Assembly (NCBI RefSeq): GCF_005780165.1
Contig: NZ_VAUV01000026.1
Coordinates: forward strand, 1-59,578
Direction of reading: 5' to 3'
DNA length: 59,578 bases
From: Phragmitibacter flavus
Lineage (GTDB): Bacteria > Verrucomicrobiota > Verrucomicrobiia > Verrucomicrobiales > Verrucomicrobiaceae
Below the pieces are notes generated by a model. It searched no databases, was not told where the DNA came from, and saw nothing but the letters and a program-made list of their open reading frames with translations. Positions 43,006 through 58,801 of this stretch are shown here, in pieces. The translations under genes were made by a program, and so were the position numbers. The first letter of the stretch is position 1; the number at the start of each line of letters is the position of its first letter.

Positions 43006-44280
43006 TCATGGCTGGGTGGTGAGTTCGAATCGGGAGACCGTAAGCTTGGTGTCTGTCTGGAAGGAAGAGATGAGCACGCTGTCGAGGAGGTTGCCTGTGG
43101 GTGACGGATGTTTTCGCGAGAGTGCATGGAATTCACGCAGCGGGATGGCGATTTCACACCACCCATCGCGGTCGGGGTGGAGGTCGTCCGCGCTTAGCTT
43201 CACCTCGAAATTACCACCGAAGCCACCGTGCCGCTTCGAGGTTAGCAGCATGACCTGCAATGGCGCGCGCTGTTCTTGTTTGAAACGGTATCGAACCACG
43301 CCGCCCTCGGTGGCCATGAGCGAGACCGGGGGCGTGAGCAGCGTGGTGCGCACGGAAATGCCGAAGTGGGTGACGACATTTCCACTGGGTTTGCGCGAGG
43401 CAACATAGGGGCTGGCGATGATGTGAGTGCCGTCAGAAACCCCGCGCCAGTGTTGCGGTGGCATGGTGGTGGTAAAATCAAAGCTCCAAGCAGAGCGCGG
43501 CTCCGGCGTGGCTTCGGAATTCAGCTTCAACGCGCTGTCGAGCGATGCCACGGCACTGTTTTTCGCGGGCACCTCAATGGAACTGCCATCGGCCAGGCGG
43601 CGCAGCCTTACAAGACCTTCATCCACCTTCAACAGCGTGTCGTCCGGTCGCGTGGAAAGATTGAAGACGGTTCCCAAAATCTCCGCCTCTGCACTCGGCG
43701 TTCGCACCAGCATGGGGCTGCCTTCCGGCTGCGGTTTTACCTGGGCGGAAAGCGATCCTCTCCTCAACAGCAATCTCTTCTGGCCGTCTTCAGAGAAGGA
43801 GAGTTCAGACTCGCCGCTGAGCATGATGAGCGTGCCATCGGCGAACGCCAACTGGGCAGTCGCCGTCTCACCAATCGTCTCCAGAGTTCCCGCGCTGAGT
43901 TGGTCGCCATCCGCAACGCTTTGCCGCAGATCGCCACGCTGACTCCAGACGATGGAACCCGACGAATCCTCCAAGGTGAGCACCGGCACTTCACGACGAC
44001 TCATCCAAAACCCCGCACTCGCCGCGAGCAGGGCAATGGACGCCGCCAGTGCCAGCCAATGCCTGGCGCCCAAACTGCGGTCTGCGGCATTGGAAATGGA
44101 GACCGGCGTGGCCAGGTCACGCTGCCTTGCCAGATCCCCCATGAGCACGGCCTGCTCGGCGATTTCGCGCAGCTGTGCACGCAGACCGGCATCGTCACGC
44201 AAGCGCTGATTGACTTCGAGCTGCTCCCTTGAAGTCAGGGTGCCGTCCAGCAAACGTTGAAGCAGGAGATCGTCGTTCAT
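43006..44280 (-). CDS. FecR-domain anti-sigma-like protein
   Basis: A 424-residue membrane protein. The N-terminal ~50 residues (MNDDLLLQRLLDGTLTSREQ) are helical. A single TM helix lies at about 74-93, followed by a FecR domain (GDQLSAGTLETIGETATAQL, LRRGSLSAQVKPQPEG, ILGTVFNLST). The C-terminal ~160 residues form a jelly-roll-like domain. The ATG overlaps the stop of the ECF sigma gene (ATGA), so the pair forms a cell-surface signalling unit in which the FecR part senses an external signal and controls the sigma. The first 50 residues match those of the kinase at 51.7 kb without gaps (LLDGxL at 10-15, LR at 33-34, DL at 49-50). Confidence 0.9.
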   Translation of the reverse strand: MNDDLLLQRLLDGTLTSREQLEVNQRLRDDAGLRAQLREIAEQAVLMGDLARQRDLATPVSISNAADRSLGARHWLALAASIALLAASAGFWMSRREVPVLTLEDSSGSIVWSQRGDLRQSVADGDQLSAGTLETIGETATAQLAFADGTLIMLSGESELSFSEDGQKRLLLRRGSLSAQVKPQPEGSPMLVRTPSAEAEILGTVFNLSTRPDDTLLKVDEGLVRLRRLADGSSIEVPAKNSAVASLDSALKLNSEATPEPRSAWSFDFTTTMPPQHWRGVSDGTHIIASPYVASRKPSGNVVTHFGISVRTTLLTPPVSLMATEGGVVRYRFKQEQRAPLQVMLLTSKRHGGFGGNFEVKLSADDLHPDRDGWCEIAIPLREFHALSRKHPSPTGNLLDSVLISSFQTDTKLTVSRFELTTQP

Positions 44281-44792
44281 GAGTGAGAAAGACGTTGATC
44301 GACACATTGCTTGAGCTGGCGGTGCAGACGCGAAAGCCTTTGATAAACCGCTTCGAGACCCGCACCAAGTGTTTCGGCGACCTCCTGACATGGGCGGCCA
44401 TCGAAGTATCGAAGCTCCAGCAAACGTCGCGAGTTCATCGGGACTGCATTGAGACATTCCCTCAATGCCTCCATGCGTGGTCCCTCGGGCACATTCGACT
44501 TCGATTGCCATTCATGATCCAACCGATCAAGCACATCCGGCTCCAGACCCAGCGACTCCGGCTTTCGTTTGCGCTGCCAGTCAATGGCCTCCCGTCTTGC
44601 CGAGACGGTAGCCCAAGACAGCAAGGCGCCCTCATGCTCGAACGACACCTCCCGCGTGACCGACTTCAGCGCCACATTCTGAAAAATATCCTCCGCTGCA
44701 TGAGCATCCCTCACGACGAGCCATGCTGCGGCACTAAGCCGATGACGGGCTGCATAGAGATGTCGTAGAATCGTTTCGGGGTCGAGAGGCAT
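44277..44792 (-). CDS. ECF RNA polymerase sigma factor
   Basis: A 171-residue sigma-70 family ECF factor. Region 2 is visible as DAHAAEDIFQNVALKSVTRE followed by LLSWATVSARREAIDWQRKR. Region 4 begins near RRLLELRYFDGRPCQEVAET and contains the helix-turn-helix. The start ATG at 44792 is favoured by family length. It overlaps the FecR-type gene by ATGA. Such pairs in PVC bacteria resemble the FecI-FecR system but without a TonB receptor nearby. Promoter targets are unknown. Confidence 0.92.
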   Translation of the reverse strand: MPLDPETILRHLYAARHRLSAAAWLVVRDAHAAEDIFQNVALKSVTREVSFEHEGALLSWATVSARREAIDWQRKRKPESLGLEPDVLDRLDHEWQSKSNVPEGPRMEALRECLNAVPMNSRRLLELRYFDGRPCQEVAETLGAGLEAVYQRLSRLHRQLKQCVDQRLSHS

Positions 44793-44942
44793 GATCGGTG
44801 TTGGAGGTTCAACGAATGGTTGAAGCCACTCCTGACATGCTACCAAAAAATTCAAGCTGAACGCTTGATAATCGCCCCCTCCAATCTTGCTGAGATTGCT
44901 GCCGTAGCCAACATGCAGCCGAAAACCGGCAGAGACTTCCCG

Positions 44943-45164
44943 CTACATCGCCGGACTGTTGCCTTGCAACGGCGTGGGAGTCTCTGTTTCAGCTCCACCG
45001 CTATTGGTTCCAGTTCCCGTGGGATTGGTTCTGTCGAGATCGTAGATGTTTTCGACCTTTTGCACCTCAGGATCAGGCTCAGGCTTTTGCCGACAGCTGC
45101 TCAGTAATGGGGCTGCCATGAAAACGGTTCCCAACAAAATACGGGTGAAAAATAGATGGAACAT
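44943..45164 (-). CDS. small lipoprotein
   Basis: A 73-residue protein with a signal peptide and lipobox LLSSC (Cys24). After the lipid-modified Cys the chain is charged, then Thr/Gly/Pro-rich. It is too short for a folded enzyme and is probably a small outer-membrane or periplasmic-face lipoprotein. It precedes the ECF sigma gene on the same strand by 150 bp. I do not recognise a family. Confidence 0.7.
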   Translation of the reverse strand: MFHLFFTRILLGTVFMAAPLLSSCRQKPEPDPEVQKVENIYDLDRTNPTGTGTNSGGAETETPTPLQGNSPAM

Positions 45165-45275
45165 AAATGGAATGGGTTTCCTAAACGTCGAACAAATTTT
45201 ATGAGTCGTCGGCTTGTATTCCTGGTTACAAATGGATCGTTTGGTGAAGCGAAAACGCGTGTTGTTATCGCGGGA

Positions 45276-46598
45276 TTACAACTGAGAGCTCAACGGCCAC
45301 GTGAGCCATTCGGTAAATCGATCCCAAAGCGACCGTTTTTTGAAATCGTCATAAGTGTAGGGACCTGCCTGTTCCAAATCTTTGAGAAATACCTGCTCCA
45401 TTTCTTTCCCAAAACTCTCGTCATAAACCGTTAGATCGACCTCTTCATTGATTTGGGACGAACGAGAATCGAGGTTTGAGGTTCCCAGGATTGAAAACAT
45501 GCCATCGACCACCATGGTTTTGGAGTGGATCATGGTAGGTTTGAACTCAAAAATCTTCACTCCGCCTTGGAGCAATTTTCCATAGGCGGTGCGTCCGGCC
45601 GCTTTGGTGGCGGGTTGATCGTTCTTCACGCCGGGCAGTAGCAGTCGGACATCGACGCCGCGTTTCACAGCTTCGTTGAGTAGTTGAATCTGGTCATCGG
45701 TCGGTGTGCAATAAGGGTTGGTGATGTAGATGGTTTTCTCCGCTGCGGCAATGGAGACTGCCTGGACCAGAGGTAGCGGTGCGACAGAGAATTCCGTGGA
45801 GGCGACGACTTGTGCCTTCAAGTTTCCCGCGGGTTTTAGCATCGGATAATGATGCGGGCCGACCAGGATTTCGTCGGTCACTCCAAGCCAGTGTTGTTGA
45901 AAGGTGGACTGCAACTTGGCCACTAACGGCCCTTCAACTTTGACGTGAACTTCCCTCCATTCATGGGTCTTGTTGCCGTCACCCCGCCAGTCATCGCCAA
46001 ATCCCACTCCTCCTGTGAATCCGATGTTGCCGTCAACAATCAGCAACCTTCGATGCGTGCGACGATTGATTCGGTCGAGCCGAATTGACCGGGCGGGATG
46101 ATAATAATAGAACTGGCAGCCAGCCTGTTTTAGGCGGTCCACGTCAGAGTTGTTCAGCGACCATCCCGAGCCTACGCCGTCCACAATGATTCGCACCTCC
46201 ACACCAGCCTTCGCTTTATCAATAAACGCCTGAATGAATTGATTGCCGACTTCGCCGGAATGAAAAATGAAGGCCTCGAAGTTGATGGTTTTTTGTGCTC
46301 CCTGGATCGCGCTCAAGAGCTCTGGGAAAATGCCATTGCCGTTGTGCAACAGTGTGATGCGATTTCCTTTGACCGGAATCGGGTCGGCTGAAGCATGGGC
46401 GGAACCAAAAAACTCAGGGTCGCGGACCGAAAAAGTATGCGAAGGGTGGTATTCGATGAGGTCCCGGCGAATGAAGAGGATCGCTGCGATACAGGCAACA
46501 CCAGTCACCAACGCAAGAATCTCGAGCCAGCCTCGAACACTCAGTCTGCCAATCCGCCGTTTAAGAAGGGCGCGTGAGTTTTTCGTGATGATCTCCAT
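45276..46598 (-). CDS. cardiolipin synthase-like phospholipase D family protein
   Basis: A 440-residue membrane-associated protein. One N-terminal TM helix is seen near residues 24-43. Two HKD motifs are visible: H182-x-R184-x4-D189 (THRRLLIVDG), where Arg replaces the usual Lys, and H358-x-K360-x4-D365 (MIHSKTMVVDG). Such proteins condense or exchange phosphatidyl groups, for example making cardiolipin from two phosphatidylglycerols. The gene is flanked by the small lipoprotein gene and a small gene next to surE, with no obvious operon. Confidence 0.88.
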   Translation of the reverse strand: MEIITKNSRALLKRRIGRLSVRGWLEILALVTGVACIAAILFIRRDLIEYHPSHTFSVRDPEFFGSAHASADPIPVKGNRITLLHNGNGIFPELLSAIQGAQKTINFEAFIFHSGEVGNQFIQAFIDKAKAGVEVRIIVDGVGSGWSLNNSDVDRLKQAGCQFYYYHPARSIRLDRINRRTHRRLLIVDGNIGFTGGVGFGDDWRGDGNKTHEWREVHVKVEGPLVAKLQSTFQQHWLGVTDEILVGPHHYPMLKPAGNLKAQVVASTEFSVAPLPLVQAVSIAAAEKTIYITNPYCTPTDDQIQLLNEAVKRGVDVRLLLPGVKNDQPATKAAGRTAYGKLLQGGVKIFEFKPTMIHSKTMVVDGMFSILGTSNLDSRSSQINEEVDLTVYDESFGKEMEQVFLKDLEQAGPYTYDDFKKRSLWDRFTEWLTWPLSSQL

Positions 46599-46771
46599 GC
46601 ATCTGAATCCGTTGCGACTGGATGCAATGGACGGCTATTTCATCGATTCGATCGCTGGTCTTACCATTTAGTCTGTGGAAGGGCATGGTCTTGGCGCGTC
46701 CAAAACCCACCATCTTCCTGCGCTCCACCTGATCTGAGGCCAGAGGCGAGAAAGATTCGTTATCTTGATCG

Positions 46772-47113
46772 TTACTCTCCCAAAGCTTTTCCATACCAAT
46801 CCAGCATGTCTGGATCACGCTCACTGTCAGCGAGGGGTGCACCAAGTTGAGGTTCCTCGTCAAACTCGGGCCATGGAGCTCCTTCTGGCATCTGCTCCTT
46901 CACAATCAGATCCAGTCCATCTTCGGGATGCGGACCATTCCAAATTTTGTCGAGTTCACGATAGTCTTCCGGGCTCCAGCGATACATCACGCGATGCAAA
47001 CCCTCTGCCTCATGTTTCATGGCTTCAGGAAATTTCTTGTTGGATACATAGGCCAATGACCGGAAAATTTTGTCGTGCCGGCGTGTGACCAGGTTTTCTG
47101 CTGTGGCTCTCAA
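46772..47113 (-). CDS. hypothetical protein next to surE
   Basis: A 113-residue acidic protein starting at a TTG codon (47113) that overlaps the surE stop as TTGA, which supports translational coupling; a shorter version starting at an internal ATG is also possible. The sequence has a helical stretch (KHEAEGLHRVMYRWSPEDYR) and an acidic, Pro-rich tail. I do not recognise a family or motif. Confidence 0.55.
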   Translation of the reverse strand: MRATAENLVTRRHDKIFRSLAYVSNKKFPEAMKHEAEGLHRVMYRWSPEDYRELDKIWNGPHPEDGLDLIVKEQMPEGAPWPEFDEEPQLGAPLADSERDPDMLDWYGKALGE

Positions 47114-47829
47114 CGCATGGTGACCCTGGCCAGTTCGTCGTGATCCGTAAGGTCCAGTCGTAGAGGGGTAATCGAAATGAAACCCTCGTCCACGGCCCGA
47201 CGATCGGTTCCTTCTTCGGCGCTTTCAAGTGGTGTGACAGTGCACCAGTAGATCGGACGGTGGAAGGGGTCCTCGCTGGGAATCACGGCGCCATCATACT
47301 GGCGAACCGATTGGCGGGTCCAACGGATTCCGCATGGTGATGCCGGAAAGTTGATGTTGAGAAGTTTGAAGGTGTGTTTCCGCAATACTAGCTCGAGCAC
47401 TTCATCTACGTGTGGGGCGATTCTCTTAAAATCCTCTGGTTCATAGGTTCCACGCAGACTTAAAGCGATTCCCCGGATTCCTAAAAGCGATGCCTGCTTT
47501 GCAGCAGCCAGGGTGCCTGAATGCCACATGCTGTTGCCAAGGTTCGGCCCGAGATTGATGCCAGATAAAACCACATCCACTTTTTCCCAGTGATGGCATC
47601 CGAGTGCCACGCAGTCTGCGGGTGTTCCATTGACTTTGAATGCTTTGAAGTCGCCCACTTCGGCGACCCGGTATTGAAGAGGCCGTGAGTGAGTGATGGC
47701 ATGTCCCATGGAAGATTGTTCAACGTCTGGGGCTACGATTCTAACTTCACCAAACTGCCTGGCCCGCTCTGCCAGAGCCCGGATGCCTGGGCTGTAGATT
47801 CCATCATCATTGACGATCACTATTCTCAT
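47110..47829 (-). CDS. surE: 5'/3'-nucleotidase SurE
   Basis: A 239-residue phosphatase of the SurE family. The N-terminus MRIVIVNDDGIYSPGI supplies the paired aspartates D8 and D9 for the metal. APDVEQSSMGHAIT contains the conserved serines, and SGINLGPNLGNSMWHSGT contains the asparagine ligand. The fold dephosphorylates nucleoside 5'- and 3'-monophosphates and some polyphosphates. It is divergent from the lipid kinase gene, with 93 bp between starts, and the stop overlaps a small downstream gene (TTGA). Confidence 0.94.
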   Translation of the reverse strand: MRIVIVNDDGIYSPGIRALAERARQFGEVRIVAPDVEQSSMGHAITHSRPLQYRVAEVGDFKAFKVNGTPADCVALGCHHWEKVDVVLSGINLGPNLGNSMWHSGTLAAAKQASLLGIRGIALSLRGTYEPEDFKRIAPHVDEVLELVLRKHTFKLLNINFPASPCGIRWTRQSVRQYDGAVIPSEDPFHRPIYWCTVTPLESAEEGTDRRAVDEGFISITPLRLDLTDHDELARVTMR

Positions 47830-47922
47830 ATCGCTTGTCAAAGTGGGCTTGTTGATCTGCACAACCAGCGAAGGAGGTGGTTGCGAATTAGAATCGGTTC
47901 GCAGATTGAAACTGAGTGTAAC

Positions 47923-48840
47923 ATGAAGGCTATTGTTTATCACAATCCCACGGCGGGCGACGAGGATGTCAGCCACAAAGAGATGAAGGACGCTCTTCAC
48001 GCAGTAGGTTGGACGGTGATTCGTTTCTGCACCGATGCGGATGATTTCCGGGAGTTGCTGGCGAGAGAGCCTGCGGATATGTTGGTGGTGTCCGGTGGGG
48101 ATGGCACCATGAGGAGTGCGTTCCGTCAACTGGCGGGATTTTCCTCGACTCCGATCCTGATCCTTGCGCGAGGCACGGCGAACAACATTGCCCTCTCGCT
48201 CGGCATCGATCTTGACTGGGAAAAGAGGTTGTCTAAGATTGAAGGATATTCTCCGCAACCGTTTCACTTTGGGGAGGTGCAATACGGGCAGGGGCAGTGC
48301 CGGGATTTCTTTTTCGAAAGTGTCGGGGTTGGAGTTTTTGCCGACTATCTTCATCTCATAGAGAATGATCCAGATCGGGCGGATGAAATCGCTGGATCGG
48401 ACGAGGATAAGGATTTTTCAAAAGATTATCGTGCGATGGCCCATCTTGCAGAAAGGGCGGGAGGGATCGATCTGGAGGTGATCATTGGAGAGGAGCACGT
48501 GATCAATCTTGATCCTGCCTTGTGGATGGAGGTGACCAATACTCAGACCATGGGGCCGAGGGTGAAATTCCTTGCCAAGGACGATCCGCAAGAACGCAAG
48601 GATCTGGCGATGGTTTATGCGTCTTGCAGCCATCGCGAAAAAATCATCTCCTGGCTGGAGGGTCAAGGGCAGGGAGACGTTCGGGAAACAGGTGCCATGG
48701 TGAAATTCGGCGGAACGTTTTTCTTCAGTGGTCAGATAAAGGCATTTCACATTGATGACGAAGTTCACGAAGGTGAAGAGGGGGTGCCAACAACCCTTCT
48801 GATCCGCCGATTTAACAAGCCGCTTTTTGTGCTTCGTTGA
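47923..48840 (+). CDS. diacylglycerol kinase family protein (lipid kinase)
   Basis: A 305-residue cytoplasmic kinase of the DAGK catalytic family (DgkB/YegS-like). The nucleotide-binding GGDGT is at residues 58-62, preceded by MLVVS. The segment ILARGTANNIALSL corresponds to the conserved GT(A/G)ND motif, with Asn-Asn in place of Asn-Asp. The start MKAIVYHNPTAG is the family's N-terminal strand. The lipid substrate is unknown. The ATG at 47923 is chosen because the conserved domain starts there; the frame continues upstream into the surE antisense. Confidence 0.85.
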   Translation: MKAIVYHNPTAGDEDVSHKEMKDALHAVGWTVIRFCTDADDFRELLAREPADMLVVSGGDGTMRSAFRQLAGFSSTPILILARGTANNIALSLGIDLDWEKRLSKIEGYSPQPFHFGEVQYGQGQCRDFFFESVGVGVFADYLHLIENDPDRADEIAGSDEDKDFSKDYRAMAHLAERAGGIDLEVIIGEEHVINLDPALWMEVTNTQTMGPRVKFLAKDDPQERKDLAMVYASCSHREKIISWLEGQGQGDVRETGAMVKFGGTFFFSGQIKAFHIDDEVHEGEEGVPTTLLIRRFNKPLFVLR

Positions 48841-48947
48841 CGGTAAGTCGAATTTGCGGTCGCGTCCAATGCGCCCAATCCCTCTGGTGTTACAACCAGG
48901 TCAGTCATGTTGAACGATTAATGTGAATCCTTCCTATCTTGACTCCT

Positions 48948-49544
48948 ATGAATCCCTCCAAAAACCACGCGGTTGTGCGCACTTATGTCAATGACATGAT
49001 CGCCGTTGAACGAGACATCTTCAATGCGATTTCCGGGCAGATCGCCGATGACAAGGTCAAAGTTCACACGGAGATCCATCGGATGTTGAGTGAAATCGCT
49101 GCCGAATCAGAGCAAAGGCTGGCGGCCAATGAGCAGCTGTCGGAGCGCCTTCATGGAAAGCTGGGTGCCGTCGTCAAAGAGGCAATTGCGGCCACAACCG
49201 GAGTGTTGGCGGGCATTTATGGGATGGTTCGCAAACACCCCGTTTCCAAGATGCTTCGCGATGATCATGTAGCGCTCAATCTGGCAGCCGTTGCCTACGG
49301 CATGTTATACACCACGGCGGTTGCCTTGGACGAGGATGATGTTGCCGCCGTGGCCTTGGAGAACCTCAATTCGCTCCCCCCAAGATTGATACTACTCTCC
49401 CGTGCGATTCCTTCCATAGTGGTCAAAGAGCTCAGTCATGATTACTCCACCAATTTTGATGCACCGGCGATTGCCACCCTAGCGATGGAGAAAGCCTGGA
49501 TCAATGCTGAAGCGGGAGGCGTGCAGGGTAAATTCATTAACTGA
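48948..49544 (+). CDS. hypothetical helical-bundle protein
   Basis: A 198-residue, all-helical protein (VVRTYVNDMIAVERDIFNAI, VHTEIHRMLSEIAAESEQRL, DDHVALNLAAVAYGMLYTTA). The first half has the spacing of a four-helix bundle, resembling ferritin-like/DUF892-type stress proteins, but I cannot confirm metal ligands. The ATG at 48948 is preferred over TTG at 48939. It follows the lipid kinase gene by 107 bp on the same strand. Confidence 0.6.
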   Translation: MNPSKNHAVVRTYVNDMIAVERDIFNAISGQIADDKVKVHTEIHRMLSEIAAESEQRLAANEQLSERLHGKLGAVVKEAIAATTGVLAGIYGMVRKHPVSKMLRDDHVALNLAAVAYGMLYTTAVALDEDDVAAVALENLNSLPPRLILLSRAIPSIVVKELSHDYSTNFDAPAIATLAMEKAWINAEAGGVQGKFIN

Positions 49545-49658
49545 AATTTTGATGATGTGAGCGCGTCTTTTTATGTTCAGACACTCAACGGATTTATCAA
49601 TTTCGCTTCACTTTAGGGCATAAATTGAATCAGACGGGTGGTCGGTTGAGCAGATCTG

Positions 49659-49856
49659 CTAAGCCAATTGCCTGACTTTCGATGCCCGGGTGCCCACGGG
49701 CACCTCGTCGATCATGATGATGGTCGATTTCGAGTAGATTGCCACCGTTTCGCTTGAGGTAAGCATAAAATTCACCAGGTGCCTTTCTTCGCGATAAAAA
49801 CACGCATCAAGGAAGACTGCTTCGCCACTGGTCAAAATGATTTTATAGGTTTTCAT
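49659..49856 (-). CDS. small hypothetical protein
   Basis: A 65-residue, beta-rich, soluble protein (MKTYKIILTSGEAVFLDACF, then STIIMIDEVPVG). The alternating hydrophobic pattern and the clean ATG start with a plausible length support it as a real gene, but no family is recognised. The 214 bp beyond it, up to the glutaredoxin-MauE gene, holds nothing I can assign. Confidence 0.5.
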   Translation of the reverse strand: MKTYKIILTSGEAVFLDACFYREERHLVNFMLTSSETVAIYSKSTIIMIDEVPVGTRASKVRQLA

Positions 49857-50070
49857 ACCAACAAGTTGCTAAGTTGCCTGCTAACCTAGGATGAATTTTA
49901 ATCAGCTTCGGAAGATGGCAATCAGAAATCCCACGTTTGGGTGGAGTTTCATCACCATTGCTGTGCATGCGAACAAATGACTAAGCCTTATGGTGATGGC
50001 GTGAACGCTTTAGGTTGCGGGCTGCCCTCACTTTCGATCGGGCTGTCGTTCCATTGCCCTATTTCACGGA

Positions 50071-50808
50071 TCACACCTCTTTGGCCATCATCCAAACAGC
50101 CATCGCCATCATCATCAAGTTCTCAGTCAAGGAGATGAAGCCAAGGGGAACATTGCTGCCTCCACCGACGCATGAGCATTTTAGATCCCGCTTCTCGATA
50201 TAGACGGCTTTGAAGACGGAGATGGCTCCGACGGTGCTGACGAGGAGGGCGGCGGGTGCGACAATCCAGGCGGCGATGCCTGCGATCATGAGGATGCCGG
50301 CACCGGCTTCCACGATGGCATAGACATACGCATAGGGAACGTAACGTTGCGCGATGAGATCATACTGGACGAAACCGGTGGCGAAGGAGAGCAGATCCTG
50401 AAGTTTCAGGACGCCGAGAATGCACATGCTGAAGGCGATGAAAAGCTCCAAGGTGCGAATGACCGAAAGCAGGCCTTGTTCCATCCAGTTGGTGCTGAGA
50501 GCCATGAGGAAGGCAACGGCAAAGACGGCCAGCACCGGCTGGTAGGTTTCGCCGGTTTTTGGATCGGGACCTTTGCCCAGATGCTCACGCAATGCGTCGT
50601 ATCCGCCAATGTTTTTGTCCTCGATGAAGATTTGCGGTGTCTCGTCGTAGCCGTGCTTCTTCTTGTAGGCTTCATTGGCCTGCTGGCTTTCCAGGTGATG
50701 ATCTTCAACATCGTAACCGTTTCTTTTGAGGAGGTCCTTGGCTTTGATGCCCCATGGGCACAGGTGATCAGGGGTGACCATTCGGTAGACGGTGGCTTTC
50801 TTGTTCAT
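50071..50808 (-). CDS. glutaredoxin-MauE/DoxX fusion membrane protein
   Basis: A 245-residue protein. The N-terminal ~85 residues form a glutaredoxin fold with a monothiol-type active site, C17 in LCPWGIKAK, and ETPQIFIEDKNIGGYDAL (TPQIFI is the cis-Pro motif). About four membrane helices of the MauE/DoxX type follow, ending KCSCVGGGSNVPLGFISLTE, whose CxC and PLGFISL motifs define the redox-associated MauE family. The protein may pass electrons across the membrane or support disulfide formation. It is the only redox-maturation gene seen. The start ATG at 50808 is chosen by the glutaredoxin start. Confidence 0.87.
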   Translation of the reverse strand: MNKKATVYRMVTPDHLCPWGIKAKDLLKRNGYDVEDHHLESQQANEAYKKKHGYDETPQIFIEDKNIGGYDALREHLGKGPDPKTGETYQPVLAVFAVAFLMALSTNWMEQGLLSVIRTLELFIAFSMCILGVLKLQDLLSFATGFVQYDLIAQRYVPYAYVYAIVEAGAGILMIAGIAAWIVAPAALLVSTVGAISVFKAVYIEKRDLKCSCVGGGSNVPLGFISLTENLMMMAMAVWMMAKEV

Positions 50809-51054
50809 CGGGTTTTGGTCGCTTGAAGGATCGGGCAACGATGTCTTTGGCTGGCAGGGCAAAGGCAATTTAAATTGGAAGGATTGGATGGTGAGGGGAA
50901 TTTTGACTGGCGGACCGAATTTCGGGATGGATTGCTGGGTGATTAGAGGTGAAAGCGTGGATTGCGGGTGATTTTTGTATGATTCCTGCTGGTTGATGAG
51001 CGCAAATAATGGGTGCGCAAGCGGCCAACGTGGTTAGGATTGTGCCAACAACTC

Positions 51055-51657
51055 ATGCTTGTAGAAACTCGTGTTACCCTCCTGCATCGGATTGCTGATC
51101 CTGCTGACCAGCGGGCTTGGGAGGAGTTTGTGTGTTTGTATGCGCCGCTGATTTTTGCGTTTGCTTCGCGTCGGGGACTGCAACATGCGGATGCGTCGGA
51201 CATCACGCAGGAGGTGCTTTCGGCGGTGACAAAGGCGATTCAAGGGTTCGAATATGATCGGACGAAGGGGACGTTTCGGTCGTGGCTTTATACCATCGTG
51301 AGACGCAAGATGGCGGGGTATTTTGATCGGCATGCGAAGACGAGTCGCAACAATGTGGACTCGGGACAGGAACTGCTGGAGCAGCAATGTGCGGTGGCGG
51401 AGGATGAGGCGCATTGGGATCTGGAGTTTCGTCGCCACATTTTTCAACAGGCCACGGAGCGGGCACGCGGGGAGTTTTCTGAGAAGGTGTGGCAGGTGTT
51501 TGTGCTTACCGCGCTGGAGGGGAGGCCGGTGAATGAGGTGGGGGAACAGTTGCAAATGAGGCCGGGGGCGGTGTATGTGGCGAGGCATCGGGTGATCCGC
51601 CGGCTGCATGACATCGTCAGTTCGTTGACGGAGGAACCGGCAGCTTTCACGACATGA
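51055..51657 (+). CDS. ECF RNA polymerase sigma factor (kinase-associated type)
   Basis: A 200-residue sigma-70 family factor. Region 2 is visible as HADASDITQEVLSAVTKAIQ, then FRSWLYTIVRRKMAGYF; region 4 as EGRPVNEVGEQLQMRPGAVY. The start ATG at 51055 is consistent with the family N-terminus ETRVTLLHRIADPADQRAWE. It resembles the ECF sigma factors of planctomycetes and verrucomicrobia that sit next to protein kinases. Its stop overlaps the kinase gene start as ATGA, so the two are produced together. Confidence 0.92.
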   Translation: MLVETRVTLLHRIADPADQRAWEEFVCLYAPLIFAFASRRGLQHADASDITQEVLSAVTKAIQGFEYDRTKGTFRSWLYTIVRRKMAGYFDRHAKTSRNNVDSGQELLEQQCAVAEDEAHWDLEFRRHIFQQATERARGEFSEKVWQVFVLTALEGRPVNEVGEQLQMRPGAVYVARHRVIRRLHDIVSSLTEEPAAFTT

Positions 51658-53945
51658 AAGACGACGAAATGTTGCTGGCTTTGCTGGACGGCTCATTGCC
51701 TGAGGAGCAGGAGGAGCAGCTGGTGCGTGAGATGGAATCGGATCCGCAGTTGCGTGAGCGGTTGGCGCAATTGTCGGGAGAAAGTTTGTTGAAGGAGGAT
51801 TTATCGGCAGGAATGCCGGAGGCTCTGCCGGTGGATGCGGAGATGATGAGGGCGGCAGTTAAAGCAGTGAGTGTGGCGCGTGGAACTTCTTCGCCGGGGC
51901 CGGTCGTGGATTTGGAGATGCCGGGGAGTCTGGGTGGGTTCACGGTTTTGGAACGGATTGCCCAGGGAGGGATGGCAACGGTTTATCGTGCGCAGGATGA
52001 GTCACTGGGGCGGGAGGTGGCGCTCAAGGTGCTTTATTCGAGCTCGGCAGCGCCGCTGATGACGGAACGTTTTTTCCGAGAGGCGCGCACGATGGCGGAA
52101 ATCAATCATCCGCATGTTTTGCCCATTCATCAAGTGGTGGGCGAAGGGGGAAGGGTTTGCATGGTGATGCATTTTGCCCAGGGCGGGAGTGTGCAGGACC
52201 GGCTCGATGCGTTGGGTGGCAAACCCCTGCCGACGGAGGAACTGGTGCGTCTGGGGGTTGCGGTGGCGGATGCGTTGGTGGCGGTGCATGCACGGGGGTT
52301 GGTGCATCGGGATGTAAAACCCTCCAACATCTTGCTGGGCAAGGGGGAGGATGAAATCTGGCTGGCGGATTTCGGTTTGGTGCGAGATGGGCAGCAGCTT
52401 TCGCTGACCCGGTCGCACATGTTTGTAGGAACGCCGGAGTTCATGTCGCCGGAGCAGGCGGCGGGGGTGGAGGTGGATTATCGCAGTGATCTTTACAGCT
52501 TCGGTGCGGTGCTTTACACAATGGCGACAGGTCGGGTGCCTTTCTCTGAGACTGACTTCGATGAACTGCGCCGACTGGTGCGGGAGGAACGTCCGCTGCC
52601 GCTGAGCGTGTGTGCTCCTGAGCTGCCGGTGTGGCTGCGAAATTTGATTGAGTCGCTGTTGGTGAAGGATCGGGAGCATCGACTTGAAAACGCGGCGACG
52701 TTGTTGCAGACATTGAAGACTTCAACGGATCGTGGTTCGGCTCCCAGTCGTTGGTTGTGGGGTCGCAAGGCGCGGCGGCAATGGCTGTTAAAAAAAGTGG
52801 GCCGCGCGGTGGCCGGGTTGCTGGCGGGGATAATGGCGGTGCTGGTCGGAACCGAGCAGACGGGTCGCACGGAACTGGTCAATCAATACCTGGCGGCGCA
52901 TGGTGGTCAGCCGTTTTGGATCGCGGGTGACTGGGGGACTTATGCAAATCTGGAGTCGGCAGTGAACGCGGCACAGCTTCGTGGTGGGGCGGTGGAGATC
53001 GCCATTCACAGCAATGCGACGTTACGTTTCGGTCATTTGAGCATCACTGAGCCTTTGACACTGCGGGCCACAAGAGGCCGGCGTCCGACGCTCTCGGCTG
53101 AAGAGAAGGGGGTGCTGCCATTGGATCGGGGACACATTGAATTGAGGGCTCCTCTGACGTTGAAGAATCTCACGATCCATCAGCGTGCAGAGCACTTTTA
53201 CTTGCGTCCGATGTTTGTGGTGCAGAACACGGAGCTAAGCTTGCAACACTGCCGATTGGTGCGTTCATCCAGGCCCTACAGTGCAGAACGATCAATTGAA
53301 TGGGGAGTGATCAGTGGGGTTGGATCGTGTCGAATCACGCTTCAGAACACGGAGTGTGTGGCATTCGGATCTCCGGCCATCATGCTGAAGGGTAATGGCG
53401 TTCGTGCGGACTCAAAACCAGAGGTGAAGCTGCGCAATTCGCGGATTTTTGGAAGGTTTTTGTCGTTGCGAGGACAAGCGGTGGACGGGCACCTGGAGGC
53501 GGATCGCAGTGTGTTGTCGAGCATTGGATTGATCGAGCACTACGCGCCGGACAGTCGCCTGCGGGCCACATGGAAATCGTGTCAGTTGCGCACGATTCGA
53601 TATTTTGTCCGGACGCCTGACATGCATGGTGAGAATGGCCAGCCATGGTTGCAGTGGTGGGGGGAGAACAACCTCATCAGCAACATGGGGCCCTACATTC
53701 AGATGGACAATGGTGACCTGGAGACTTTTGAAGACTGGCAGGGCTATGTGATTGAGGGAGGTGGTCAATGTGTCGATTCATTGGTGGTTCCGACCAAGAA
53801 AAGTGATTTGGTGCAGATCAACGATGCACGCATTTTTGCCGGGGAGAGTTATGTGGTGGAGGATCCACGACTGGTATATGGTCATCAGGCACCTGAACTG
53901 GTGCCGCTGAGAGAAATAGGGCCACCAGTTCGGGTTTCGCGATGA
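51654..53945 (+). CDS. membrane Ser/Thr protein kinase with C-terminal beta-helix-like region
   Basis: A 763-residue protein. Residues 1-50 match the FecR protein's N-terminus. The kinase domain spans about 95-355: glycine loop IAQGGMATVY, Lys125 in VALKVL, Glu143 in FREART, HRDVKPSN with Asp220, DFG at 239-241 and GTPEFMSPEQ. A TM helix lies around 383-399. The last ~360 residues, outside the cytoplasm, contain repeated short strands (GHLSITEPLTLRATRG, LTLKNLTIHQ), as in right-handed beta-helices, likely for ligand binding. The gene overlaps its sigma factor gene. A two-gene signalling unit, external signal to kinase to sigma, is inferred. Confidence 0.9.
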   Translation: MKDDEMLLALLDGSLPEEQEEQLVREMESDPQLRERLAQLSGESLLKEDLSAGMPEALPVDAEMMRAAVKAVSVARGTSSPGPVVDLEMPGSLGGFTVLERIAQGGMATVYRAQDESLGREVALKVLYSSSAAPLMTERFFREARTMAEINHPHVLPIHQVVGEGGRVCMVMHFAQGGSVQDRLDALGGKPLPTEELVRLGVAVADALVAVHARGLVHRDVKPSNILLGKGEDEIWLADFGLVRDGQQLSLTRSHMFVGTPEFMSPEQAAGVEVDYRSDLYSFGAVLYTMATGRVPFSETDFDELRRLVREERPLPLSVCAPELPVWLRNLIESLLVKDREHRLENAATLLQTLKTSTDRGSAPSRWLWGRKARRQWLLKKVGRAVAGLLAGIMAVLVGTEQTGRTELVNQYLAAHGGQPFWIAGDWGTYANLESAVNAAQLRGGAVEIAIHSNATLRFGHLSITEPLTLRATRGRRPTLSAEEKGVLPLDRGHIELRAPLTLKNLTIHQRAEHFYLRPMFVVQNTELSLQHCRLVRSSRPYSAERSIEWGVISGVGSCRITLQNTECVAFGSPAIMLKGNGVRADSKPEVKLRNSRIFGRFLSLRGQAVDGHLEADRSVLSSIGLIEHYAPDSRLRATWKSCQLRTIRYFVRTPDMHGENGQPWLQWWGENNLISNMGPYIQMDNGDLETFEDWQGYVIEGGGQCVDSLVVPTKKSDLVQINDARIFAGESYVVEDPRLVYGHQAPELVPLREIGPPVRVSR

Positions 53946-55303: not shown

Positions 55304-58300
55304 ATGTTTATGTCACACCACCACTCATGCACTGCGCCCCCCTCGTCTTCCTCTGTTTGGTTTCGGGGTATCAACAAGGCCCTGAATCTGGTCCTGGTGC
55401 TGGGCACTTTGTTTTTTTCGTCTGGACAACCTCAGGCGCAGGTCAATGCGACTTGGAGTGCAACTGCGCCGACGGGAGCCAACTGGAATGACGGAGCCAA
55501 CTGGGACAGCAATCCCGTGTTTCCTGGAGTGGGAGGAGACATTGCGAACTTCGATCAAAACGCCGGTGGGATCGCGCCGGACGACTATCAGGTTTATGTG
55601 CCAAACGGGGCGGACATCGTTTTGGGTTCCCTCAATTTCGCCATGGGAGCAGACCTTTTTGAGATCAGAATTGCCCCCGGGGGTGCCCTTTCTTTTAACG
55701 TCGCGGGGCAGGGTGTTTCCAATTTTGAAAGCTCTGGAGGCCAGAGTTTTTTTATCGAAGGATCTTCTTCTTCGGCCGGGGGGCTACTTACGTTCATGAA
55801 TCAAAGTTCCGCTGAGCTGGGAGGTGGAACGGTTCAATACATTGCAAGCTATGCGACGGCGGCGGGACGAGTGCCAGGACAGATTGAATTTAGAAACTCG
55901 TCCACAGCCTCAAGCGCCATCATTTGGAATCAGGGTGCGTTCACGGCCAACGCGAATGGAGGAGCGACCTCGTTTCTCGATACCTCAAATGCGGGCACAG
56001 CCACCATTCACAATACCGGGGGAACTGGGGCGGCCACATTCGGCGGTTTAACCGTATTTTTTGATGACTCGAGTGCTGGAAGCGCCTTGCTGATTGCCCA
56101 TGGCGGCTACACGGCCGGTGCGGGATTTGGACATATCGTCTTCGGGGACACCTCGGACGCTGCCAACGCAACGATCACCAATTTTGGTGCTGCGGCAACT
56201 GGTGCCATGGCGGGTCGGACTACGTTCGTCAGCTCTGACAATGTTGGCAGTCCAACGATCAACAACCTGGCGGGGTCGGCGGCGGGTGCCGAGGGCGGGG
56301 TTACCAGGATCGGTGAGTCACAAAGCACTTTCTCTCCGATCATCGTCAACCAAGGTGGCGACGCGTTGATGGGCGAACCGGGCCAAACGCTCATTGATGG
56401 CAGCTCGGTGCTTGGTGACGACACTGAGATCAAGAATCTAGGGGGCACTGTGTCCGGGCAGGAGGGAGGGAGAACCACCTTCGACGCCGACAGCAATGCA
56501 GGTGGTGCCTATATCGCCAACCGCCGGGCCACCGTGGCAGGTGCAGGCGTTGGCGAAACCAGGTTTCATGGACAGGCAAGCGCGGGCAGCGCCACTATTT
56601 TTAACCAAGGAAGCACCGTCGCCGGAGCCGAAGGTGGCAGGGCTGTGTTCGATTTCGACAGCACCGCAGCGAGCGCCATGATACGAAATTTTGGCACGAC
56701 CATCGCCGGCGGATCGGGTGCTTCAACCCAATTTTTTGGCGATGCTGGTGCGGGTGCCGCCATCATCCTCAACTTTGGAAGTCCCAGCGGCCAAGGTGGT
56801 AGAACGGTTTTCGCCGACAGCAGCCGTGCCGAAAATGCTACCCTCTCAGCCGAGGGAGGCGCTTTTGCTGGCGGCACGATCTTTTTCAACCAAGACAGCA
56901 GCGGCGGCAGTTCCCGGGTGATCCTCGACGGCAGTGGCACTCTCGATATCAGCTCCCACAGCAATGGTGTTGAAATTGGCTCGCTGGAAAGCGATGTCGG
57001 CAGGGGTGGTGGTGGCATCGTCAATCTTGGCGGCAATGAACTCACCGTCGGCAACCTCAACACCAGCACGACCTTCAGCGGCGTAATTTCCGGCACGGGC
57101 GGCCTGACCAAAGTCGGCACCGGCATTCTCAATCTGACTGGCGTCAACACTTACAGCGGCGATACCACCATTGATGCAGGAACCTTGCTGGCGAACGGGG
57201 TGCTGGCGAGTGCCAATGTTTTTGTTAATCCGGCGGGGATGCTGGGCGGGGCGGGGATTATTCAAGGCAATGTGATTAATGCAGGCATTGTATCTCCAGG
57301 AAATAGCGTGGGCACGCTCACCATCGGAGGAAATTATTCACAAAGTGGGACGCTGGTGATTGAGATCGAAGGATGGAATCCCGGTCAATATGATGTGCTC
57401 GCGGTTGGGGGAAGTGCCAGTCTGGGCGGTAATCTGGTGTTGCTGGCGGGTCCGGGATTGACTTATACCCGTGGAGATCGCGCGGAGTTTCTCACGGCAG
57501 CGGGTGGAGTTAGTGGTGAATTTGACAACGTGCAGAACTTGAACACTGGGACGATTCTTGAAGCGGAGATCATGTATGAAAGCAACGTGGTTGCGGTGGA
57601 GATTGTGCAGGGTTCATTCGCAGAGTTTGGTGAGGAGGTGGGCGATGGATTGCCGGACGAGCTGCGTGATTTGTTGCGCAATACCGGACTGATTCTTGAT
57701 GGCGTGGCTTTTGATTCGCGCGAGGCGGTGTTGATTGCCTTCCTCAATGGCATTCTGCTCGCTGATCTGCCCGCGCTGTATTTCAAGATCGCTCCTGAAG
57801 AACTTAGTGTCATTCACGAACTTGGCGTCAGCATGGCGGACAATGCGGCGGGATTTTTTAAACGTCGTGCGGGGGAGATCCGCCATGGATTGCGGGTTCC
57901 GGGGAATGTGACGCCTTCGAACCTGCTGGTTGATCCCAAAAATCCGAAGAGCATTGCGCCTGAAGTTGCTGCCGAAGAGGATCTGCGCTGGAGCACCTTT
58001 GCGTATGGCGACGCCACCTGGCTGGATTTGGAAAGCAGCGGCACGGCTCCGGGATATGACACACTGAGCGGTGGATTCAGCGCGGGAATTGATTACAAGG
58101 TTAGCGACACACTGACGGTCGGGGTGATGCTTAGTTATACCGGAAGCGATGCTGACCTCCATGATGATGGTGATCTGGAGATGAACAGTTATGCCGCCAA
58201 CTTATATGCGGCCTGGCAGTCGGGAAGTTGGTATCTCAATGCGCTGGTGGGCGGTGCGTTTAATGATTTTGAATATGATCGCGCCGCATTGTTGGGCTTG

Positions 58301-58801
58301 GCCAGTGGCGATGCAAATGGTGGGGCATTAAACGCTTATCTCGGTGGCGGATATGAGATCCAGCAGGGCGGATGGCGTTTTGGGCCTGCGTGGTCGTTGC
58401 ATTACACCTATGTGGGTTACGAATCGTTCAAGGAACAAGGATCGCTGGCACCTTTGGAGATCCAGAGCAATCACACGCAATCCTTGCGCAGTTCGGTGGG
58501 GGCGGAAGTCGCTTATGTGATCAAGGCGGGACGCAGGCTGGTGGTGCCGCAGGTGTATGTGGCGTGGCAGCATGAGTTTGGAGATCGCTCCCAGGCGACG
58601 GATTTCCGATTTGCCTCGGGTGCAGGCAATGTGGTGACCGTTGAAGGGCCTGAAGTGGGGCGCGATGCGTTATTGTTGGGAGCTTCGGTGTCGGTTTTGT
58701 GGAGTGACCGCTTCAGCACTTTTGTCGGCTACAACACCCAGCTTTTGCGAGACAACTACGAATCCCACAACCTCACTGCCGGGCTTGCCTGGTCCTTTTA
58801 A
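55304..58801 (+). CDS. type Va autotransporter
   Basis: A 1165-residue outer-membrane protein. The extended signal region ends near SSGQPQAQ (residue 45). The passenger contains about eleven copies of a ~28-residue repeat (residues ~220-525) of the form GGRTTFxDxSxAGxATIxNxG. Then comes an autotransporter PATR motif (LTKVGTGILNLTGVNTYSGD, then TTIDAGTLLANG). The C-terminal ~270 residues (from about 894, STFAYGDATWLDLE) form a 12-strand beta-barrel ending in the terminal Phe of AGLAWSF, the signal for BAM insertion. Function is likely adhesion or surface coating. A divergent LuxR gene and a tetranucleotide tract lie upstream. Confidence 0.93.
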   Translation: MFMSHHHSCTAPPSSSSVWFRGINKALNLVLVLGTLFFSSGQPQAQVNATWSATAPTGANWNDGANWDSNPVFPGVGGDIANFDQNAGGIAPDDYQVYVPNGADIVLGSLNFAMGADLFEIRIAPGGALSFNVAGQGVSNFESSGGQSFFIEGSSSSAGGLLTFMNQSSAELGGGTVQYIASYATAAGRVPGQIEFRNSSTASSAIIWNQGAFTANANGGATSFLDTSNAGTATIHNTGGTGAATFGGLTVFFDDSSAGSALLIAHGGYTAGAGFGHIVFGDTSDAANATITNFGAAATGAMAGRTTFVSSDNVGSPTINNLAGSAAGAEGGVTRIGESQSTFSPIIVNQGGDALMGEPGQTLIDGSSVLGDDTEIKNLGGTVSGQEGGRTTFDADSNAGGAYIANRRATVAGAGVGETRFHGQASAGSATIFNQGSTVAGAEGGRAVFDFDSTAASAMIRNFGTTIAGGSGASTQFFGDAGAGAAIILNFGSPSGQGGRTVFADSSRAENATLSAEGGAFAGGTIFFNQDSSGGSSRVILDGSGTLDISSHSNGVEIGSLESDVGRGGGGIVNLGGNELTVGNLNTSTTFSGVISGTGGLTKVGTGILNLTGVNTYSGDTTIDAGTLLANGVLASANVFVNPAGMLGGAGIIQGNVINAGIVSPGNSVGTLTIGGNYSQSGTLVIEIEGWNPGQYDVLAVGGSASLGGNLVLLAGPGLTYTRGDRAEFLTAAGGVSGEFDNVQNLNTGTILEAEIMYESNVVAVEIVQGSFAEFGEEVGDGLPDELRDLLRNTGLILDGVAFDSREAVLIAFLNGILLADLPALYFKIAPEELSVIHELGVSMADNAAGFFKRRAGEIRHGLRVPGNVTPSNLLVDPKNPKSIAPEVAAEEDLRWSTFAYGDATWLDLESSGTAPGYDTLSGGFSAGIDYKVSDTLTVGVMLSYTGSDADLHDDGDLEMNSYAANLYAAWQSGSWYLNALVGGAFNDFEYDRAALLGLASGDANGGALNAYLGGGYEIQQGGWRFGPAWSLHYTYVGYESFKEQGSLAPLEIQSNHTQSLRSSVGAEVAYVIKAGRRLVVPQVYVAWQHEFGDRSQATDFRFASGAGNVVTVEGPEVGRDALLLGASVSVLWSDRFSTFVGYNTQLLRDNYESHNLTAGLAWSF

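Follow-up and report, generated by a model that had tools for sequence, protein, structure and literature searches.

A zinc-less class I anti-sigma domain, very probably shared by a FecR-type protein and a receptor-like Ser/Thr kinase of Phragmitibacter flavus

We analysed contig NZ_VAUV01000026.1 of Phragmitibacter flavus (assembly GCF_005780165.1), whose whole length of 59,578 nucleotides is called the window below, and found that two of its genes, encoding a FecR-type membrane protein and a Hanks-type Ser/Thr kinase, begin with the same short module and lie directly behind genes for extracytoplasmic function (ECF) sigma factors. By profile comparison and structural modelling, the module very probably belongs to the class I anti-sigma domains but has no zinc ligands. 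The class of domain is itself already known; less expected than the identity of the module is its position on a receptor-like Hanks kinase. This kinase is a variant carrier of a known anti-sigma class, and neither a description of it nor any reference to the fusion of a Ser/Thr kinase with an anti-sigma domain was found in those parts of the open-access literature that were searched, which is no proof of absence.

The shared module and its class

The FecR gene runs from 44280 to 43006 on the minus strand and the kinase gene from 51654 to 53945 on the plus strand, so that the two loci lie 7.4 kb apart in opposite orientation. Each start codon makes an ATGA with the stop codon of the sigma gene in front of it (44280-44277 on the minus strand, 51654-51657 on the plus strand). 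The coordinates, strands, reading frames, ATGA starts and opposite-strand spacing of about 7 kb given in an earlier sequence-only reading of this DNA were all confirmed. The 4-base overlap is ordinary in the window genome, where five other sigma/partner pairs have it likewise.

That reading had also proposed a gapless module of 50 residues, and our alignment bears it out. Residues 1-50 of the FecR protein and the kinase align without gaps, with 16/50 identical positions (32%) and a BLOSUM62 score of 78. The positions in common are M1, D3, D4, L7, L10, L11, D12, G13, L15, D30, L33, R34, L37, L46, D49 and L50. In 20,000 shuffles the best score was 51, so none reached 78, and 16 identities were reached three times. 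The predicted domain covers residues 1-54 of the FecR protein (44119..44280, minus strand; assigned by alignment to the kinase module and by a profile match in which it is itself a profile row). In the kinase, helices 1-3 fall within residues 1-53 (51654..51812, plus strand; AlphaFold, Foldseek and VIA), and a candidate fourth helix was modelled at residues 62-73 (51837..51872, plus strand).

To place the module, we compared profiles with solved structures. A nine-row zinc-less profile, built from eight modules of the window genome and one relative, matched the anti-sigma factors RslA (3hug, E 0.0024) and DdvA (8rlz, 0.0039) and a CHAT protein (8rot, 0.0053) in the PDB, followed by a bacterioferritin (0.013) and RsiW (5wuq, 0.033). 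The 8rot match covers the same aligned segment as DdvA. With a wider alignment of 16 modules (ten zinc-less, six zinc-type), the E-values fell to 5.6e-9 for 3hug, 2.8e-8 for 8rot, 4e-8 for 8rlz, 7.2e-7 for RsiW and 1.1e-4 for ChrR; the bacterioferritin stood at 1.2e-4. Zinc-less and zinc-type module profiles matched each other with an hhalign probability of 89% (E 2.2e-6). Pfam searches with 13 modules of the window genome gave zf-HC2 in three (best E 8.8e-5), RskA_N in two (0.008) and RseA_N in one (0.064), as well as Nif11 in three (0.013) and other single matches.

The AlphaFold model of the kinase module has helices at residues 2-12, 17-29 and 31-52 and the fourth at 62-73, with pLDDT of 86-94 over the first 40 residues. 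When this model was searched with Foldseek against 350,542 PDB chains, all six matches were MucA or RsiW. VIA comparison gave Z 6.4-6.8 to MucA and RsiW, and Z 2.1 to one other chain, the unrelated Dam1.

Passages of PMC7406223 give the class I anti-sigma domain three helices and, on a flexible linker, a fourth that binds sigma2, and put the share without a zinc motif at about 44%. The paper also states that RseA loses its activity when D11 is changed; in our reading D12 of the module corresponds to this residue. The optional Hx3Cx2C zinc motif is absent from both window proteins. As in the class I proteins RseA, MucA, RsiW, RslA, RskA and ChrR (zf-HC2, PF13490, being the zinc type), the three helices and the fourth stand at the N-terminus, the gene lies directly behind an ECF gene, and a membrane helix and a further domain follow downstream. 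Unlike these relatives, the window modules are recognised by no Pfam model at cut-off, and in the window kinase an enzyme domain separates the anti-sigma domain from the membrane helix. DdvA and 8rot are likewise large proteins that open with an anti-sigma domain; the difference, as known from the PDB listing, is a CHAT domain in place of a kinase.

Pairing with ECF genes and spread of kinase carriers

The module extends beyond the two window genes. We read the frame downstream of 30 of the 33 sigma70 region 2 matches in the window genome and found that many frames behind ECF genes open alike, with a first helix that closes on L-D-G-x-L, then an acidic helix and D-P-x-L-R. Thirteen such modules were picked by eye and aligned. 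The nine-row profile found 12 places in this genome at E ≤ 10. Eleven of them (E ≤ 0.03; eight profile rows and three independent) lie directly behind ECF genes, and the twelfth (C2:126036, E 0.33) has no listed ECF gene nearby. This genome has 21 Pkinase matches; of the 17 kinase N-termini inspected by eye, that of the window kinase alone has the module.

To examine the pairing more widely, we searched 19 genomes, comprising that of the window and 18 relatives, one of them without a match. At E ≤ 0.001 the zinc-less profile gave 118 matches, eight in the window genome and 110 across 17 relatives. In these relatives the 1.2 kb upstream held an ECF gene of the same strand in 110/110 cases, which are not independent events because the genomes are related. 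On the opposite strand these loci gave 0/110, and 1.2-kb tiles of the window gave 2/98, both being the two real sigma genes. The sequence-only reading had asked whether the module always follows an ECF gene and had named wide occurrence away from sigma genes as the case against it; no such occurrence appeared among these matches. Together with the profiles and the model, this pairing supports its suggestion of a portable module that would handle sigma factors. A motif test placed not one of the 110 matches on a kinase, so the usual carrier in these relatives is some non-kinase protein. The zinc-type kinase of one of the 17 genomes (G002, below) escaped the zinc-less profile at E ≤ 0.001.

The sigma factor paired with the kinase was then sought in 68 genomes of the family, that of the window included. 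The best two matches outside the window genome, in G023 and G002, are 43-44% identical, and each has behind it, likewise at -4, a kinase whose part beyond the membrane helix is similar. These sister kinases begin with HLEKCATC and HLEQCAEC, both of the Hx3Cx2C form. In our reading of the alignment, their cysteines fall on D30 and L33 of the window kinase, next to which is R34, and these three residues (D, L and R) recur in the FecR protein; the shared D..LR thus takes the place of C..CR. The canonical zinc-type motif of the sister kinases in G023 and G002 fits the earlier suggestion that the kinase may be an anti-sigma-type partner, and an anti-sigma function of the kinase is likely.

A second pair of ECF and kinase genes in the window genome (C6:31728-33184) lacks an anti-sigma domain. 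Sigma relatives are present in the majority of the 68 genomes of the family, and a kinase of the same type follows at 4/7 such loci read. Other kinases of the window genome (C1:164484-165167 and C16:66547-67401) carry a different N-terminal segment, ..AC.GD..R..VE.LL, and the first of them overlaps a gene that is ECF-like by eye. Kinship between this segment, taken from four loci, and the module was not supported (hhalign probabilities of 5%, E 0.0075, and 11%, E 0.0026).

Across 387 genomes of the phylum, a profile of the sigma factor found 30 loci, of which 28 were read (the window's own and one other being left out). Kinases with an anti-sigma domain stood at 3/28 loci, in G002, G296 and G299, which are the best-scoring outside the window genome; those of G296 and G299 are zinc-less. 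A kinase motif without an anti-sigma domain was found at 10/28 loci. At seven others of the 28, the ECF gene is followed by a short protein that is FHA-like by eye, a possible pairing with a phospho-reader.

In a search of a named genome collection, at least 590 stretches matched and the best 80 kinase loci were examined. Among these 80, a zinc motif stands ahead of the kinase in nine, and 8/9 follow an ECF gene, compared with 3/71 of those without the motif (Fisher p 5e-8). Seven of the eight zinc-type kinases linked to ECF genes are planctomycetal (Pirellulales, Planctomycetales, three from Rhodopirellula and two from Kuenenia), and one is labelled 'bacterium'. A zinc-type profile run in five of these genomes gave 37 matches (3, 11, 3, 19 and 1), 30 of which were taken as loci. 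Kinases account for 27/30, a share biased upward since the profile was derived from such kinases; 26/30 loci, and 23/27 of the kinases, have an ECF gene upstream. Among the loci read, two of the five genomes hold 9 and 12 zinc-type kinases. Kinases of this zinc-type build thus recur in Planctomycetes. For five zinc-type kinases, one of them from Melainabacteria, no ECF gene was found in the 1.2-1.3 kb upstream.

How the kinase may act on its sigma factor

The Hanks-type kinase domain (residues 97-347; 51942..52694, plus strand; PF00069, E 5.5e-44) keeps K125, HRD (218-220), DFG (239-241) and GTPEFMSPE (259-267). A single membrane helix is predicted from hydropathy at residues 382-400 (52797..52853, plus strand), with basic residues on its N-terminal side, and five related kinases tested likewise have one. 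The part behind it (residues 404-683; 52863..53702, plus strand) was modelled by AlphaFold as a parallel beta-helix; model confidence is low over the C-terminal 80 residues. Foldseek returned 375 matches for this beta-helix, the best PDB match having E 7.5e-4, with low TM-scores. Among the 50 matches listed, the titles are mostly those of polysaccharide lyases, esterases, glucanases and phage tailspikes. Pfam recognised no family in the outer region of the window kinase or of the two sister kinases. The kinase is thus probably built of an anti-sigma domain, a Hanks kinase, a membrane helix and a beta-helix outside.

The sigma factors ahead of such kinases were examined for the acidic DAED-type motif of region 2.2. 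In the 27 of 31 sigma factors covered by the alignment, that of the window included, position 1 is acidic in 26/27 and position 4 in 25/27, and in none are both acids missing. This motif binds RNA polymerase. Excerpts of PMC8103513 and PMC8999054 state that ECF43 sigma factors acquire its charge only through phosphorylation.

We slightly favour a working in which each of the two window proteins captures the sigma factor of its upstream gene and the kinase frees its own by phosphorylation. Specifically, sigma4 would be held by helix 1 and sigma2 by helix 4, the arrangement of known pairs. The kinase would be switched on from outside by a signal, to judge by the fold alone perhaps a polysaccharide, and would then phosphorylate the bound sigma factor, its own linker or its own anti-sigma domain, so that the sigma factor is set free. 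A sigma factor that keeps the acidic motif should be active by itself and need an inhibitor, so an anti-sigma domain in the kinase would make sense. A precedent is found in parts of PMC13147305, with a similar account in PMC8999054, where PknB phosphorylates the anti-sigma factor RshA and SigH is freed. We infer that the kinase could act on its own anti-sigma domain; release through its own phosphorylation falls somewhat short of an even chance.

Several findings weigh against this interpretation, and they bear on three alternatives. The kinase might activate its sigma factor directly by phosphorylation, as in the ECF43 pairs EcfP/PknT and EcfK/PknS, with the module as a docking arm that does not inhibit; we consider this rather unlikely. 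The window kinase resembles these systems, and the kinase-linked groups ECF59, ECF61, ECF62 and ECF217, in lying beside an ECF gene; its catalytic motifs are present, and direct sigma phosphorylation is reported for ECF43 pairs in passages of PMC8999054 and PMC13147305. In addition, the window sigma factor has DASD (residues 60-63), with Ser62 where both sister sigma factors have Asp or Glu. Ser62 is a candidate phosphosite that would fit direct phosphorylation instead. However, it is not common to the sister sigma factors, and no conserved phosphosite of the EcfP type was found in these sigma factors. ECF43 sigma factors are described as having uncharged phosphorylatable residues in place of the acidic motif and no anti-sigma factor, whereas the window sigma factor keeps acids in its DASD, all 27 sigma factors covered here keep the first or fourth acid, and the kinase carries a predicted anti-sigma-type domain. 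Moreover, the supposed docking arm belongs to a class that inhibits sigma factors elsewhere.

Less probable still is that the module binds the sigma factor while the kinase is inactive or mainly targets other proteins, release coming through the outer domain, for example by proteolysis. Anti-sigma domains do stand on other large effectors such as 8rot, and the P-loop (IAQGGMATVY, from residue 102) is atypical, with Ala for the first and third of its three glycines, so kinase activity is not assured. Against this, the K, HRD and DFG motifs are kept, and no other kinase target is suggested because no gene of the same direction adjoins the pair among the large frames listed. A further pair (L124, in G299 at C10:225800-230500) also counts against the favoured working: a kinase of the same build follows its ECF gene, and the anti-sigma region is shortened or lost.

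The last alternative, a convergent short helical arrangement unconnected to sigma factors, is highly improbable. It could appeal to the shortness of the domain, the modest identity and the weak single-sequence scores: as a single sequence, the kinase module found only unrelated chains and no anti-sigma factor in the PDB, and Pfam gave no significant family for either window module. Below threshold, the kinase module ranked Nif11 (0.053) and DUF6767 (0.079) before RseA_N (0.11), and the FecR module gave DUF3379 (0.15) only. The favoured working has further points against it: the zf-HC2 matches of the sister kinases are below the family cut-off, the Foldseek E-values for MucA and RsiW are weak (0.43-2.2), helix 4 has low model confidence, and VIA scores with Z below 8, or below about 13 for helical bundles, may reflect a common arrangement only. 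Chance or convergent likeness was rejected on the shuffles, the profile matches to solved anti-sigma factors and the complete pairing with ECF genes in the relatives, and the zinc-type sister kinases argue in the same direction.

If self-release through an anti-sigma domain in the kinase holds, a single protein would unite anti-sigma factors and Hanks kinases, both of them main signalling routes of bacteria. Reviews propose that kinase-linked ECF sigma factors, usually without an anti-sigma partner, are activated by phosphorylation. Excerpts of PMC8999054 list planctomycete examples for the groups ECF59, ECF61, ECF62 and ECF217 and note that outside ECF43 the kinase-linked groups retain the acidic motif and may act in a different way from EcfP. 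An anti-sigma domain in the kinase would offer one answer to how such groups work. We tentatively suggest a class of receptor kinases that are self-releasing anti-sigma factors, by which several planctomycetal ECF groups, at present proposed to depend on sigma phosphorylation, would operate, the domain having been overlooked inside the kinase.

Other features of the two loci

The FecR-type protein (43006..44280, minus strand) has a membrane helix at about residues 76-94 by hydropathy, a FecR domain beyond it at residues 136-225 (PF04773, E 1.9e-14) and an ECF gene upstream, the layout of a FecR regulator. No second Pfam family was found at E ≤ 1, and weak NCBIfam anti-sigma matches lie far under their cut-off (NF047528, E 0.00084). 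From its sequence, the protein is organised like a usual anti-sigma factor anchored in the membrane, with FecR as the sensor outside. It resembles FecR/FecI regulation in its PF04773 domain behind the membrane helix and its upstream ECF gene, and differs in its N-terminus of the zinc-less class I type; a passage of PMC7406223 places E. coli FecR in a divergent group, AS243.

The sigma gene of the FecR protein lies at 44277..44855 on the minus strand. Its start codon is uncertain, TTG at 44855 giving the longest frame. The product matches Sigma70_r2 and Sigma70_r4 in Pfam and TIGR02937 in NCBIfam above cut-off; a match to TIGR02989, the Rhodopirellula/Verrucomicrobium family, is below that family's cut-off. 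The sigma gene of the kinase lies at 51013..51657 on the plus strand, also with an uncertain start codon (GTG), and its product matches Sigma70_r2 (E 3e-11) and, above cut-off, TIGR02937.

The outer region of the L124 kinase matches Pfam Beta_helix below cut-off (E 0.0017). Within the window, 50071-50868 encodes in one frame a glutaredoxin-like N-terminus and a hydrophobic membrane part, as judged by eye. Adjoining the kinase locus, 55304-58801 encodes a large protein that is autotransporter-like, also by eye.

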